NCBI GenBank assembly: GCA_023205875.1 | Contig: CP060766.1 | Span: 541,068 to 605,067 of the forward strand | Reading direction: 5' to 3' | Length of the DNA stretch: 64,000 nt | DNA from: Chloropicon primus | Lineage: Eukaryota; Chlorophyta; Chloropicophyceae; Chloropicales; Chloropicaceae | Shown here: positions 40,837 to 64,000 of the stretch, in pieces | How the letters are laid out: the number at the start of each line of letters is the position of its first letter | Numbering within the stretch: position 1 is the first letter of the stretch | Notes under the pieces: model-generated | What the model was told of the DNA's origin: nothing | The model's database searches: none | What the model saw: only the letters and a program-made list of their open reading frames with translations | Translations under genes and position numbers: made by a program

Positions 40837-43530
40837 ATGACGAAAGAGTCTTCAGGAGATAGTGCCGCTCCTAAAACAGCCATAGTTGGGAACTTTACCG
40901 ATAGTAACAACATGAAGAACGAAGTAAAATCCGTAAGCCCTCTGACGTCGATAGACGAGATAGAGTCGGAGAATGGGACGCACCATGAGGTCGTCAAAAA
41001 CAAGAAGCGAAGGCGGAGCAGCTTCAAGAAGAAGGGTGCCATCACAAAGAAGCTGTTGATCAAGTTCTTGGACTCGGCAGGCTTTCAGGCGTATATGTTC
41101 GTCTGCCTGGTGCTTGCACTCTTCGCCGTGGACGTCATTGCCCTCCACTCGTACGGTAACGACGTCACAGAGGCCATGAACATCATCCTCACGCTTGTGT
41201 TTGCGAGTTTCCTTGCCGAGATGGTCTTGAACTTTTTCATACGGGAGGATTACTCCAAGCTGGAGACGGTGATGAACTTTATAGCCACGTTCTCCATCCT
41301 TTTGGACATCACGTGGATCACAGAGCTTTGGGAGAAGAGCGATGGAGGAGGAGGAAGCTACGAGAGGGCCTCGCGTGCGGCCAGGGTCGGAGCGAGGGCC
41401 GGTAGGATTGGTAGGATTGTTAGGGTGGTCAGGCTTGTTCGTGTGATTAAGATGTTCGCCCTCTTCTTCCGGTGCTTCCGCAAGGATGAGGAGGAGGACT
41501 CCATGGCGCCAACCAACTTGGGGCAGAAGCTGGCCGAGTCCATCTCCCGTTTGGTGGCCCTTCTCATCATGATTACCATCTGGGTTGCTCCTATGTTGAC
41601 GTTCGAGGAGTTCGACGAGTCCCTCTCTGCGTGGATCACTGTCTTTGATTCTCACGCGCAGAACAACGCCACCACGTTCCAGCTGGAACCTGTCGTCACG
41701 GACTACTACGACTTCATCATGGATGGCGGCCTGCTGAGACCGGTGGAGCTGAACATTCACGGCGACTACTGGGACTGGACGGAGATCTCTGGCGGGTACA
41801 CGCCAAGAAAGAAGGACAAGATCACGCTCCAGGACAACAGCGGTTTGATCGTGCTCAAGCTCGACTCCTCGAAGAAGAACCAGGAGGACGCCATGCTCAA
41901 CATTCTCTTGGTGGTGGTGGTGGTGGTGGAGCTGATCTGTTTTATCGCGCTTCTGAACCAGACGACCTCTCTGCTGGTGGTGCGGCCGCTGGAGAGGATT
42001 TTTACCATCATCCGAATCAACGCTTCGCAGATTGTGGGAGCTTTGGACATCGAAGACTCGGACGAGGAGTCTGAGGACGAGAAGGAAGTGGACGAGATCA
42101 ACACAATCGAGGCTGCTGTCCAGAAGATGACAAGGATCGTGAAGCACGTCAGTGGAGGTGGTGCCCAAGGTTCTCAGATCGTGCAAAACTACATTGATGA
42201 CGCCAACATTGATGAGAAGACAAAGGCCTGGCTGGTGAACCAGTACGACGGTTCCGAGACCGTCGCCGAGACCCCTGCGAAGAAGAAGAAGAAGGAGAGG
42301 AAATTCAAGAGGAGCATCATTGCCTACGACAACGTGGACCTTGATTTCTTGAACTCCTGGAACTTCGACGTGTTCTTGCTCAAGGAGGAGGAGATGTTCT
42401 CTTACGTGAGAGCCATGTTCATGGAGCTTGGCTTGTATGAGGCTGGCATGGTCACGGACGAGATCCTGAGCAACTTCTTGAAGGAAGTGAGGAAGAACTA
42501 CCACGACAACCCTTACCATAACTTCCACCACGTCATCGACGTTACCCACGGAGTGTACCGCATCTTGAGGCTCACGGAGGACCGCTTGGATCTCACGGAG
42601 TACGAGAGAATGTCTCTGATGGTTGCTGCTATTTGCCACGACATGGATCACCCTGGTGTGAACAACGCTTACTTGGTGCACACCCTGGACCCCCTTGCCA
42701 TCAAGTACAACGATTCTGGTGTCTTGGAGAACACCCACGTCGCTTGCTTGTACAGCATGGTCACCACAAAGCCAAACAGCAACATCTTCGTGAACATCAA
42801 GGACGACAAGGTGTGGAGGGATATGAGGAAGAACATCATTGGTTGCATTCTGCACACCGATATGGCTCACCATTTCAAGATGGTTTCCCAGATGGATGTG
42901 TTCTTCGAGTTGCACGCCAACGTGATTGAGAAGAAGGACAACCCTTTCACCACTCCTGATGACAGGCAGTTTTTGATGAACATGGTTCTGCACTCTGCAG
43001 ACATCTCGAACGCGGTGAAGCCTTTCGGAATCTACACCAAGTGGGCGAACTGCGTGCTGGAGGAGTTCTTCTCTCAGGGAGACAAGGAGGCGGCCAAGGG
43101 GCTACCAAAGTCTCCGATGATGGACAGGGAAACCACCTCAAGGGCCATGTCCCAGGTCAACTTCATAGAGTTCATTGTTGGCCCATTGTACCTGAACCTT
43201 GTGAAAATTCTGCCTGAGCTCTCTGAGCTGGCCATCACCTTGTTGAACAACAGGAAAACGTGGGGAGACATGTACATCGAGGAAGTTGACGGCAAGTCCA
43301 TGAGCTCCATGGACTTTAACGCAAGAGAGGAGGAGAAGGCCAAGTGCACCAACAGGTACTTGAAATTCAAGGAGAAGTTTGAGCCAGTTATGGAAAAGAT
43401 GGAGGAGCTGGGTTTCGCCAGTGAACAACTGCTGAAGAGGGCTGGTATCCAAAAGAAGGAGAGGCCAAACCCAAGGGCCTCCGTCATTGGCAACCTTGCC
43501 CGCAGAGCTTCGATTTCCATGGGCAAATAA
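40837..43530 (+). CDS. Voltage-sensor-like membrane domain fused to class I cyclic-nucleotide phosphodiesterase
   Basis: 897 residues, no intron. A ~70-residue polar head is followed by four helices of ion-channel type: S1 about 84-104, S2 112-134, S3 144-164, and S4 with arginines at 177, 180, 183, 187, 190, 193, 196, 199 and 202. Two more helices (about 233-253, 354-375) flank a ~100-residue presumed extracellular loop, then a HAMP-like RPLERIFTIIR linker and a basic stretch (KKKKKERKFKR). Residues 500-800 are a PDEase_I domain: YHNFHHVIDV, HDMDHPG, LHTDMAHH, LHSADISN, and QVNFIEFIVGPLY with the invariant Gln (773). All metal ligands look intact, so it should hydrolyse cAMP and/or cGMP at the cytosolic face. 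No K+ selectivity-filter sequence is seen. Confidence 0.88.
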   Translation: MTKESSGDSAAPKTAIVGNFTDSNNMKNEVKSVSPLTSIDEIESENGTHHEVVKNKKRRRSSFKKKGAITKKLLIKFLDSAGFQAYMFVCLVLALFAVDVIALHSYGNDVTEAMNIILTLVFASFLAEMVLNFFIREDYSKLETVMNFIATFSILLDITWITELWEKSDGGGGSYERASRAARVGARAGRIGRIVRVVRLVRVIKMFALFFRCFRKDEEEDSMAPTNLGQKLAESISRLVALLIMITIWVAPMLTFEEFDESLSAWITVFDSHAQNNATTFQLEPVVTDYYDFIMDGGLLRPVELNIHGDYWDWTEISGGYTPRKKDKITLQDNSGLIVLKLDSSKKNQEDAMLNILLVVVVVVELICFIALLNQTTSLLVVRPLERIFTIIRINASQIVGALDIEDSDEESEDEKEVDEINTIEAAVQKMTRIVKHVSGGGAQGSQIVQNYIDDANIDEKTKAWLVNQYDGSETVAETPAKKKKKERKFKRSIIAYDNVDLDFLNSWNFDVFLLKEEEMFSYVRAMFMELGLYEAGMVTDEILSNFLKEVRKNYHDNPYHNFHHVIDVTHGVYRILRLTEDRLDLTEYERMSLMVAAICHDMDHPGVNNAYLVHTLDPLAIKYNDSGVLENTHVACLYSMVTTKPNSNIFVNIKDDKVWRDMRKNIIGCILHTDMAHHFKMVSQMDVFFELHANVIEKKDNPFTTPDDRQFLMNMVLHSADISNAVKPFGIYTKWANCVLEEFFSQGDKEAAKGLPKSPMMDRETTSRAMSQVNFIEFIVGPLYLNLVKILPELSELAITLLNNRKTWGDMYIEEVDGKSMSSMDFNAREEEKAKCTNRYLKFKEKFEPVMEKMEELGFASEQLLKRAGIQKKERPNPRASVIGNLARRASISMGK

Positions 43531-43744: not shown

Positions 43745-45192
43745 TCACGCAATGGTCAGGTTCAGCCTAAGAGTTCGAGGCAACTTCTTGTCATTGATCG
43801 CGAGGGTCGCTTTGTTCGTCATGATCAAGTCCTTCACTTTCCTTTGCAAGTTCGGCCTCGTTGCTTCCTCCAGAGGACCGTGCATGTAGAGGTTCATGCT
43901 GCCACAGCTTATGCTTGGCGCGGAGATGTTCCCCTTCACCGATGCGTGGGCGGAAACCACATCGATGAGCTCCGCCAACGTTTTCGATTCCGATATCGTC
44001 AAAGAAATCCCAGAGCTGCAAACAGGGCATTCCGCGTCCTTCTCGTACTTGACTGTGTGCGTGTAGATTCCCTCGGCTCCCATGTACATCATGTAATTGT
44101 CCATCCCTGCGCAGCACATCGTCACCGTCTTGAGAACTTCGGTGGCGCAAGCCGCCGCCACAATTGCGTTGGTCGAGGCGATGGCCGGAATGATGTTCTT
44201 CACCACCCCCTGGACCAACGAGAACGTCACGCCCCCGATCCCGAATTGCTCCGCCCTCTTCACCGCGTTCTTGTGGCACCACTGCAGATGCTCGACATTG
44301 TCCACGTCGAACTCCACGATCTCGTTCTCCTTGGGCCACTGGATGAGGTGAGCATACTCTATGCAGTGCACGGGCGTTCTCGGCGTCTCCGCCAGAGTGC
44401 ACAGTGGGAACTTGACCTGGGGAGGGAAGAGCCACATGGTGCACGCAAAGCACGGCGTGATGCCGGGAAGGATAACCCTTGCGTGGCCCTTGAACCCCTC
44501 CGTGCCCCCGTCAACGAGCGGCTTGATCGTCGACAGGTCCAGCTGCCCGTCGTCGTCGTACTCGAGAAAGCCGCAGACCGTCTCGTTGATCCAGCTCCTG
44601 GCCTCCACGGAGTCCAGCCCGAGGACGATGATGTGGAAGCCCTTGTAGAACTCTGGCGATTTGTCCTCGATCCTGCCGAAATGCGGGACGACCTTGACCC
44701 CCTCGATCCTTTCCTGGATCCTCTCGGCCGCCACGACCGCCTTTGGCTTCCCGACGTCCTTCATCCGAAACAGGAACTGCCTGTTGAGGTTGCTCACGTC
44801 GATAGTGTCCATATCAATCACCTCAATGTTCCCGAACGCCAACAGGGCCAAGTCCTTGAGCAGCTCGCAGCCCAGGCCACCCGCACCAATCACAAGAACC
44901 CTGCAGAGGCGCGAGCCGAGGAAGGAACACGCAAACACAAACACAAACACAAACACACACACACACACACACACACACCAGTTCACTCAGTACGGAGAAG
45001 GGGGAGAGAAAGAGATTGTGTGTGTGTGTGCAAAACCGCTGTCGCCTTGCGCTCTTACCTGCAGTCCTCCCTCAAGAAGGGCAGGATCGCCTCCGAGGGC
45101 TCGAACCCTGGACCCACGAGCATCCCATCCCGTCGAAACAACCTGCCCAACACATCCCACCTCTCTTTCTCGTAAGAATACGAAGGATCCAT
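43745..45192 (-). CDS. UBA3: NEDD8-activating enzyme E1 catalytic subunit UBA3/ECR1
   Basis: Exons 45192..45059 and 44900..43745 (GT-AG) join to 429 residues, linking FLREDC-R to VLVIGAGGLGCELLKDL. Nucleotide-binding GAGGLG, DMDTIDVSNLNRQFLF and KPKAVVAAERI adenylation motifs are followed by zinc-ligand pairs (CFAC, CPVC), the catalytic cysteine in FPLCTLAETPR (Cys212), IEYAHLIQWP and a ubiquitin-fold-like C-terminus that recruits the E2. With an APP-BP1 partner it activates NEDD8/RUB for cullin modification. The intron holds CA and TG microsatellites. Two motif copies upstream (45406-45437, 45608-45634) face this gene. Confidence 0.95.
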
Positions 45193-61957: not shown

Positions 61958-63193
61958 AGACGGACGGACGGAAGGACGGACGGAAGAACCTCCCAGATCA
62001 GATATTATTTATTCATAGGAGTAGAACGTATAATATTCATATATATATATATTTAACACCTAACTAAACTCGTTACCAAAGTCGTTACGAGTCTTTGCTC
62101 GTGTGCATGAAAATGTTTTTTTACCCACTTGGGGCCAAAGAAGAAAGGACACCAGTGAGGTCCTGCGCGGGAGGAGGCATTGTGGGCGGCAGAGGAAAAC
62201 AAGTGTGTGTTGTGCGCGCATGGATTGGGCCTTATTTCATTCTGTCGTCCTTCCGATGATCGGGAGAGGCCAAGCTGTGGTGGGAAGTGGCCGGCGCACC
62301 CGTACCGTTGCCGGGGGGCGAGGGAGGAGAGGTGTTCTTGGGCGATTCAGGAGTGTGGGAGAGGAGAGAAGGCAAGTAGATGTGATTGTGGGTAGTTGTT
62401 CGTGGCTTGGATCATCTGTGTTTGGTTCATGGTGACTTGATTGTGTAATGTAGGTGTGTATTATGTGATTCTGTTGCTATTATTGTCCATTTTTGGGCCT
62501 ATTTTTTGGTACGAATAATGGAGTGACGGATCCAGTTCGTGTCCGATGGCTGTGAAACTTTGTCAGAAGGGGCTTGTATTTTATATTTGGAATTCGTTGA
62601 ATATGGTGTTTGTTCCCGTCGTCCTTGATAGCTGTAGAGATCCATCTGTCGGACCACTAAAACCCAAACCACAGCCCTCCATGGATGATGATGATGTTGT
62701 GTGAATGGAGTCCGTGATGAAGAGCCCTGTTCCGGGTGGAGTGCAATAGAGGGCACCAGAGAATAAAGAGGTCCAATCGTAAACCTTACCCTGATCCACT
62801 CTTCTGCTGGAATCCGTCGTCTTATGCGACCTGATTTAGGGCCGACTAAAACCCAGATCACACTTAAGACTTATACCAGAAAGAAAAAGTGCGGTGGCTG
62901 GAGGCACCACGGAAAGCTTGTATGATGCGGCGGTGTCTTTCACTTAGGCTTCTTTTGTTCTCCGGCTCCTTTCCTTGGCCAGGACTTCCTTCCTTCCTTC
63001 CTCGGGCAAACCCTACTCAAGGCACTTAGGACCCACGAGAGGGCCTTTTAGGCGTTAGGTTTTAGGACTCCCAAGGCTTTAGGAAACGCGGTGCTTTGGA
63101 GGCACCACGGCAAGCTTGGATGATGCGACGGTGTCGTTCTCTTAGGCTTCTTTTGTTCTCCGACTCCTTTCCTTGGCCAGGTCGTCCTTCCTT
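61958..63193. other. Subtelomeric, gene-free region
   Basis: Begins with GGACGGAC repeats (61968-61986) and an AT-rich stretch at 62000-62060 that probably ends the peptidase transcript. Frames beyond this are short and unlike any gene. TCCTTCCTTCC tracts lie at 62990-63003. The right part carries the ~95-bp direct repeat listed separately, then GTAGGTTT/GTTAGG runs leading into the telomere. Confidence 0.6.
62891..63180 (+). repeat. Pair of ~90-bp subtelomeric direct repeats
   Basis: Copy 1 about 62891-62981 and copy 2 about 63089-63181 share GGAGGCACCACGG, AAGCTTG, GATGCG, TTAGGCTTCTTTTGTTCTCC and CTCCTTTCCTTGGCCAGG, about 198 bp apart. The sequence between them already contains TTAGG-like pieces (TTTTAGGCGTTAGGTTTTAGG at 63047-63067). 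Confidence 0.75.
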
Positions 63194-64000
63194 AGGTTTG
63201 TAGGTTTGTAGGTTGTTAGGTTGTTAGGTTTTTAGGTTTAGGTTTTTAGGTTTTAGGTTTTAGGTTTAGGTTTTAGGTTTTAGGTTTTAGGCCCAGGCCT
63301 TAGGCCCAGGCCTTTAGGCCTTAGGCCTTAGGCCCAGGCCCAGGCCTTTAGGCCCAGGCCTTAGGCCTTAGGCCCAGGACTTTTAGGTTTTAGGTTTTAG
63401 GTTTTAGGTTTTAGGTTTTAGGTTTTAGGTTTTAGGTTTTAGGTTTTAGGTTTTAGGTTTTAGGTTTTAGGTTTTAGGTTTTAGGTTTTAGGTTTTAGGT
63501 TTTAGGTTTTAGGTTTTAGGTTTTAGGTTTTAGGTTTTAGGTTTTAGGTTTTAGGTTTTAGGTTTTAGGTTTTAGGTTTTAGGTTTTAGGTTTTTAGGTT
63601 TTAGGTTTTTAGGTTTTAGGTTTTTAGGTTTTAGGTTTTTAGGTTTTTAGGTTTTAGGTTTTGGGTTTTAGGTTTTAGGTTTTGGGTTTTAGGTTTTAGG
63701 TTTTAGGTTTTAGGTTTTGGGTTTTAGGTTTTAGGTTTTAGGTTTTAGGTTTTAGGTTTTAGGTTTTAGGTTTTTAGGTTTTAGGTTTTGGGTTTTAGGT
63801 TTTGGGTTTTAGGTTTTAGGTTTTAGGTTTTAGGTTTTAGGTTTTGGGTTTTAGGTTTAGGTTTTAGGTTTTAGGTTTTAGGTTTTAGGTTTTAGGTTTT
63901 AGGTTTAGGTTTTGGGTTTTAGGTTTTAGGTTTTTAGGTTTTAGGTTTTAGGTTTTAGGTTTTAGGTTTAGGTTTTAAGGTTTAGGGTTTAGGTTTTAGG
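63194..64000 (+). repeat. Right telomere, main unit TTTTAGG
   Basis: Perfect TTTTAGG units run from about 63379 to 63590 (roughly 30). The flanks hold variants: TTTAGG, TTTTTAGG, TTTTGGG and, proximally, GGCCTTAGGCCCA-type degenerate units (63288-63380). The G-rich strand reads 5' to 3' rightward, the orientation of a right chromosome end. Variants persist to the last bases of the window. Confidence 0.93.

Follow-up and report, generated by a model that had tools for sequence, protein, structure and literature searches.

Can membrane potential act directly on the breakdown of a cyclic nucleotide? The question is raised by a gene of the green alga Chloropicon primus, located on the forward strand at 40837–43530 of the stretch of genomic DNA analyzed here (the window, 64,000 nucleotides in length), which reaches the end of contig 13. 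The gene is a single uninterrupted frame of 897 codons plus a stop and has no intron (ATG at 40837, stop at 43528–43530). Its product, P0001, consists of an S1-S4 module of the kind found in voltage sensors, a fifth helix, a loop of about 100 residues, a sixth helix, a linker, and a complete PDEase_I domain, in that order. The presence of the sensor and the phosphodiesterase (PDE) on one chain is firm. Upstream of the ATG the frame remains open for 11 further codons (908 amino acids in total) with no ATG among them.

The evidence on P0001 is genomic sequence only, and the sensor and the PDE might in principle be separate proteins, encoded by two genes or joined in a mistaken frame. We consider this very improbable. 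A preliminary description of this DNA had assigned the whole protein to a single frame, and the 897 codons without a stop bear this out. The G+C content at third codon positions (GC3) is 0.60–0.85 in all eight measured segments of the frame, the linker included, and a paralogue (see below) repeats the order of sensor, linker and enzyme in one frame. C. primus is described as a picoplanktonic green alga with 20 chromosomes and an average of less than one intron per gene (PMC12301720), so that an intronless gene is ordinary in this organism.

The C-terminal part of P0001 matches PDEase_I (PF00233) with 255.8 bits (E 5.6e-76, cut-off 24.8 bits) over profile positions 1–235 of 238. Residues H561 and H565 (an HxxxH motif), H601-D602, D722 and Q773 are all present and align with PDE9A. 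We take the three histidines and two aspartates to be metal ligands and Q773 to be the substrate glutamine. The complete domain with metal ligands and invariant glutamine that was described at first is fully recovered, and P0001 is, as judged from its sequence, a class I cyclic-nucleotide PDE with an intact predicted catalytic site. It is nearest by score to the cGMP (cyclic guanosine monophosphate)-specific PDE9A, from which it cannot be read whether the substrate is cAMP (cyclic adenosine monophosphate), cGMP or both. Among solved sequences PDE9A (best E 3.6e-57) is followed by 7d7p (E 7.7e-53), given as a linker-PDE construct of the rhodopsin phosphodiesterase, Rh-PDE (PMC7644710). No phosphatase family occurs among the Pfam matches of P0001 at E <= 1, and the PTEN-like domain of the voltage-sensing phosphatases is accordingly absent. 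The Guanylate_cyc domain of the voltage-sensor cyclases is likewise missing, with PDEase_I in its place.

The S4 helix of P0001 contains arginines at 177, 180, 183, 187, 190, 193, 196, 199 and 202, followed by Lys205, with one step of four residues and all others of three. This matches exactly the nine arginines at 177–202 first reported. A nine-rung arginine ladder arose in none of 20,000 shuffles of residues 171–212, which include 10 arginines (best 8), and in none of 3,000 in which the whole protein was shuffled (best 5). The longest ladder of arginine or lysine in the other PDE proteins of the genome, of which five of six were measured, has 3 to 5 rungs. The charge-transfer centre of a voltage sensor comprises an aromatic residue and a glutamate in S2 and an aspartate in S3. 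In P0001, F125-L-A-E128 of S2 aligns to the FxxE of channel S2, and Asp99 in S1 is common to the cyclase paralogue.

We compared profiles of the sensors of P0001 and the paralogue, using hhalign, with channel segments from this genome (16 of the 43 listed Ion_trans matches). The two-sensor profile matched with a probability of 90.6 (E 1.6e-7, score 40.3), compared with a best score of 6.2 for 20 column-shuffled control profiles. The paralogue sensor alone gave a probability of 92.7 (E 5.8e-8). Taken together with that of the paralogue, the S1-S4 region of P0001 is channel-like by profile comparison.

The paralogue was identified by searching the genome (20 contigs, 17,584,162 bases; contig 1 comprises 1,855,637 bases) with P0001. 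The nine matches are P0001 itself, seven rows covering six other PDE genes, and L009 on contig 2, which matches the sensor half only (residues 73–257, E 5.3e-11 in the whole-genome search). The L009 frame encodes P0002, a protein of 820 amino acids (L028:2631–5090). Residues 71–459 of P0001 align pairwise with P0002 at E 2e-15 and 24% identity, with 63 gaps in 434 columns, mostly in the loop. The alignment takes in the sensor, the fifth helix, the loop, the sixth helix and a linker motif, P-[LI]-E-R-[IM]. P0002 matches Ion_trans at residues 70–201 with 37.4–40.5 bits, over the cut-off of 25 bits, and its C-terminus is a class III cyclase (Guanylate_cyc at 488–687, 32.3 bits, cut-off 21.9). The S4 of P0002 contains ten basic residues, K174–K202, in the register 3-3-4-3-3-3-3-3-3 that is also found in R177–K205 of P0001, and the rungs differ by exchanges of arginine and lysine only. 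Because the register is kept in a paralogue that otherwise shows only some 25% identity across the module, the comparison speaks for selection on the S4 charges.

A genome search with the N-terminal module of P0002 identified itself and the window gene alone at E <= 0.01, and the cyclase half of P0002 has no other match in the genome at E <= 0.001. These searches score the best candidates only, and diverged copies could be missed. Neither module gene is among the 43 matches of the Ion_trans search, and the 49 of the Guanylate_cyc search do not include the P0002 cyclase. Within the reach of these searches, the module occurs in two genes, joined to an apparent cyclase in one and to a PDE in the other. 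By homology, P0001 thus carries its phosphodiesterase on a sensor-cyclase chassis. The likeness to cyclase fusions had previously been drawn in concept. The comparison stands, and it was understated: a sensor cyclase of this very genome has a module homologous to that of P0001.

Given these features we consider P0001 to be a voltage-sensor phosphodiesterase, and control by voltage is likely. In the genomic sequence and the low-confidence models, nothing came up that the preliminary description had named as contrary evidence. However, several observations weigh against this reading. Over the whole protein Ion_trans (PF00520) scores 20.1 bits (E 3.9e-4), under the curated cut-off of 25 bits, and the isolated residues 84–215 score 25.2 bits (E 1.1e-5), just over it. 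The expectation that both profiles would be found on the one protein therefore holds for PDEase_I and, for the channel family, on the isolated sensor but not on the whole protein. In S3, Asn147 aligns to the aspartate of the channel motif LDF, a position at which the paralogue has aspartate. Among the sequence features this loss is the chief argument against an ordinary sensor, and it may change the voltage range or the speed of the response. The hydropathy of S3 and S4 is barely over the threshold of 1.3, that of the paralogue S4 is under it, and the outer half of the P0001 S4 (177–190) is rich in alanine, glycine and serine. Compared alone with the 16 channel segments, the P0001 sensor reaches a probability of only 20.8 (E 2.2e-4). 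Against solved chains the two-row profile has one match at E <= 1, an L-type calcium channel at an E of 0.06, which fits a sensor but is not significant, and the N-terminal 498 residues of P0001 alone found no channel among solved structures, with one chance match at E 0.43.

Structure prediction counts on the same side. Single-sequence AlphaFold models of full P0001 and of residues 66–260 have mean pLDDT (predicted local distance difference test) values of 37.1 and 51.3 and are unusable as structures; whether S4 packs as in a voltage sensor, as had been proposed, is a point that models this poor do not show. Foldseek listed 29 matches; all have E above 0.001 and no voltage sensor is among them, although with poor models such matches are meaningless. 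Only the order of helices was used from the predicted models, as weak support.

Hydropathy agrees with S1 to S4 as first described and, between S4 and the enzyme, with the two extra helices that were first placed around a loop of about 100 residues. The loop contains a single N-glycosylation sequon and has no match to a Pfam family at E <= 10. The presence of this loop and the sixth helix in both module-bearing genes could mean that P0001 is a receptor, in which a ligand for the loop is the real input and the linker reads it out, as it does in bacterial receptors with two helices, with S1-S4 retained as an anchor or dimer module with little response to voltage. The loss of the S3 aspartate is in keeping with such a protein, and the genome contains PDEs behind extracellular-type ligand-binding domains (ANF_receptor in L024 and SBP_bac in L023). 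However, a ten-rung S4 ladder held in register in two genes at about 25% identity is needless for an anchor, and the loop, in addition to its lack of a Pfam match, is the gappiest part of the two-gene alignment. We regard a ligand-driven receptor as unlikely, though it is the strongest of the alternatives to a voltage-sensor PDE.

The six hydrophobic segments ahead of the PDE could also belong to a channel fused to an enzyme. The S1-S6 region would then conduct ions, either by a pore of non-canonical type or, like proton-conducting sensors, by way of the sensor, and the PDE would clear cyclic nucleotide locally. Precedent exists in the ciliate and Plasmodium K+-channel adenylyl cyclases, for which a sensor together with a K+ pore is reported (PMC10651576). 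However, the K+ selectivity filter motifs G-[YFL]-G and T-x-G-[YF] occur nowhere in P0001, in agreement with the lack of a recognizable filter in the preliminary description. Additionally, the interval of some 100 residues between helices 5 and 6 resembles no Pfam family, and the Ion_trans match is limited to profile positions 7–109 of 241, which is the sensor part. A conducting P0001 is therefore improbable, more so than a receptor. P0002 contains two GFG triplets, both after the sixth helix and hence outside the interval between helices 5 and 6.

The linker begins with RPLERI at residues 383–388, an instance of the P-[LI]-E-R-[IM] motif common to the cyclase paralogue. This motif had been called HAMP-like, a likeness that is by eye only. 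HAMP as a formal family was rejected, as the Pfam HAMP model has no match at E <= 10 in the linkers of either P0001 or the paralogue.

As a voltage-sensor PDE, P0001 would be a membrane enzyme, probably a dimer, with its S1-S4 sensor and class I PDE on the same chain. A change in membrane potential would move S4, and by analogy with the voltage-sensing phosphatases this movement may be transmitted through the link between S4 and the fifth helix to the pair formed by the fifth and sixth helices, and from there to the HAMP-like linker. The linker could then re-set the PDE dimer and thereby alter how fast cAMP, cGMP or both are degraded. A further, extracellular input may come from the loop. The sister gene would govern synthesis through a sensor of this type, which would place voltage on both arms of the cyclic-nucleotide pool. 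We take a linker of the Rh-PDE kind to be the most likely coupling route. Rh-PDE is described as a membrane sensor, a helical linker and a PDE9-like C-terminal PDE, as in P0001, but its sensor is a light-absorbing rhodopsin (PMC7644710). Its linker was modelled there as dimeric and HAMP-like, though without a HAMP motif, and may carry the signal. Light changes the activity of Rh-PDE only about 2-fold (PMC7644710), so coupling through a HAMP-like linker may be weak, a further point against voltage control of P0001. Breakdown driven by depolarisation, as previously suggested, is one of several possibilities for the direction of the effect.

Few proteins are known in which voltage directly controls an enzyme. 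The voltage-sensing phosphatases (Ci-VSP, TPTE) resemble P0001 in combining a pore-less S1-S4 module with a cytosolic phosphoester hydrolase on one chain. Their enzyme is a PTEN-like lipid phosphatase, and they lack helices 5 and 6, the loop and the HAMP-like linker. The K+-channel adenylyl cyclases of Paramecium, Tetrahymena and Plasmodium, which Weber is said to have described in 2004, also have a voltage-sensor part fused to a cyclic-nucleotide enzyme. Unlike P0001, they are reported to have a K+ pore and to make cAMP (PMC10651576, PMC12223298). A review with a figure legend on all proteins for which a sensor domain is reported names channels, sNHE, cyclases and phosphatases, including a lipid phosphatase with a sensor, and the word "phosphodiesterase" has no occurrence in its text (PMC10651576).

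Voltage-sensor cyclases are also described from oomycetes and alveolates. PPTG_13136 and PPTG_13761 of Phytophthora parasitica have, like P0001, an Ion_trans-type N-terminal sensor with an S4, no pore-helix homology, a long middle and a C-terminal cyclic-nucleotide domain (PMC12223298). P0001 differs from them in that this domain is a PDE instead of a cyclase and in that its host is a green alga. The order of Ion_trans and Guanylate_cyc in P0002 is that of PPTG_13136, and by layout only P0002 looks like a green-algal member of this family. P0001 and P0002 place the layout of a sensor joined to a cyclic-nucleotide enzyme in green algae. The antibody signal for the oomycete cyclase is reported mainly on one flagellum, whereas quantification in the same paper is without flagellar enrichment or differential distribution (PMC12223298). 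Chloropicon is reported to keep flagellar genes, though its cells lack flagella (PMC6731263, PMC12301720); that the P0001/P0002 pair belongs to a hidden flagellate stage is a guess. In four subgroups of Euplotes, genes for PDEase_I and Ion_trans are reported always to lie next to each other (PMC8670190), and it is again a guess that these are fused genes.

The collections searched outside this genome consist of prokaryotes and viruses and say nothing about other eukaryotes. In viral contigs there is no confirmed relative from searches with P0001 (1 pattern-matching stretch) or alignment A2 (132 pattern-matching stretches), and a tblastn search of the phage collection with P0001 yielded no relative either. 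A degenerate pattern of the cyclase motif PNVNMASRLEA occurs 0 times in the viral contigs and 0 times in the prokaryotic genome contigs, and none of 33 stretches in the latter was confirmed as a relative of the cyclase paralogue. We found no report of a voltage-sensor phosphodiesterase in the literature, which was covered mainly as titles and abstracts, with most subscription papers and the protein databases outside the search. In the main text of both Chloropicon genome papers (PMC6731263, PMC12301720) "phosphodiesterase" and "voltage" each occur 0 times.

If our reading is correct, P0001 would be the first described voltage-sensor phosphodiesterase, and PDEs would form a third class of directly voltage-controlled enzymes besides lipid phosphatases and cyclases. 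What is new is the enzyme; the principle of a sensor joined to an enzyme and the type of chassis are known. Such a protein would let an electrical event alter cAMP or cGMP with neither calcium nor G proteins as intermediaries, and it could serve as a tool for the electrical control of cyclic nucleotides. It is possible, though we would not yet favor it, that P0001 and P0002 are a matched pair on a homologous chassis, a voltage-sensor phosphodiesterase and a voltage-sensor cyclase, so that membrane potential acts on both synthesis and breakdown. If paired, the two enzymes would be expected to differ in the sign of their response or in the voltage at which they respond, shaping one messenger.

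There are seven PDEase_I loci in the genome, P0001 included. Ion_trans does not occur at E <= 0.01 in the six others, each scanned as one open frame that starts at its first ATG. Sensors in front of other PDEs of the genome are ANF_receptor, SBP_bac and GAF. L024:2176–5808 (contig 3) encodes an ANF_receptor domain, a hydrophobic helix and PDEase_I in one frame, a putative receptor phosphodiesterase with the inverse of the receptor guanylyl cyclase layout. In L023:3951–7460 (contig 3, minus strand) a single frame likewise has PDEase_I, here preceded by a solute-binding domain of bacterial type (SBP_bac_8/1) and a hydrophobic helix.

From 49 Guanylate_cyc matches nine frames were fetched, and six of these were scanned. 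One of the six contains ANF_receptor, a kinase-like domain and Guanylate_cyc (L048:3372–6764, contig 8, minus strand). This is the layout of animal receptor guanylyl cyclases, here in a green alga. The ANF_receptor match begins at profile position 107, and the N-terminus may sit on another exon. L050:1244–5938 (contig 11) has a cyclic-nucleotide-binding domain and two Guanylate_cyc stretches in one frame, possibly a self-sensing cyclase. In C. primus, going by predicted domains, S4-type and ANF_receptor sensors are each joined to an enzyme that makes cyclic nucleotides and to one that degrades them.

Features of the P0001 gene in the window, with the basis of each assignment.
Feature	Position in window	Strand	Basis
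Open frame, voltage-sensor module and phosphodiesterase	40837..43530	+	frame, GC3
N-terminal tail, residues 1-80, predicted cytosolic	40837..41076	+	16 K+R vs 10 D+E
S1 helix, residues 81-104	41077..41148	+	hydropathy peak 85-103; low-confidence model helix 81-104
S2 helix, residues 110-135	41164..41241	+	hydropathy, low-confidence model, channel profile alignment
S3 helix, residues 139-167	41251..41337	+	hydropathy, low-confidence model, channel profile alignment
S4 charge ladder, R177-R202 and K205	41365..41451	+	ladder analysis
Fifth hydrophobic helix, residues 236-254	41542..41598	+	hydropathy 2.13
Loop, residues 255-353, predicted extracellular	41599..41895	+	8 K+R vs 18 D+E; sequon N277; no Pfam match
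Sixth hydrophobic helix, residues 354-372	41896..41952	+	hydropathy 3.04
Linker, residues 383-436, RPLERI ... DEINTIEAAVQKM	41983..42144	+	HAMP-like by eye; two helices in low-confidence model
PDE catalytic domain, residues 503-815	42343..43281	+	PDEase_I profile, alignment with PDE9A, ligand residues
C-terminal tail, residues 816-897	43282..43527	+	mostly helical in low-confidence model

P0001 also contains RRRS at residues 58–61 (window 41008–41019), before the sensor, and RRAS at 889–892 (window 43501–43512), near the C-terminus. We take these to resemble sites for protein kinase A or protein kinase G (PKA/PKG), and they are possible sites of feedback phosphorylation. The neighboring open frame at 43745–44986 on the minus strand contains ThiF and E2_bind domains, which we take to be of the NEDD8-activating enzyme type, and is unrelated to P0001. 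At the contig end, the last 2 kb of the window (62001–64000) show a G+C content down to 0.43 and a strong skew, and are probably subtelomeric or telomeric sequence.

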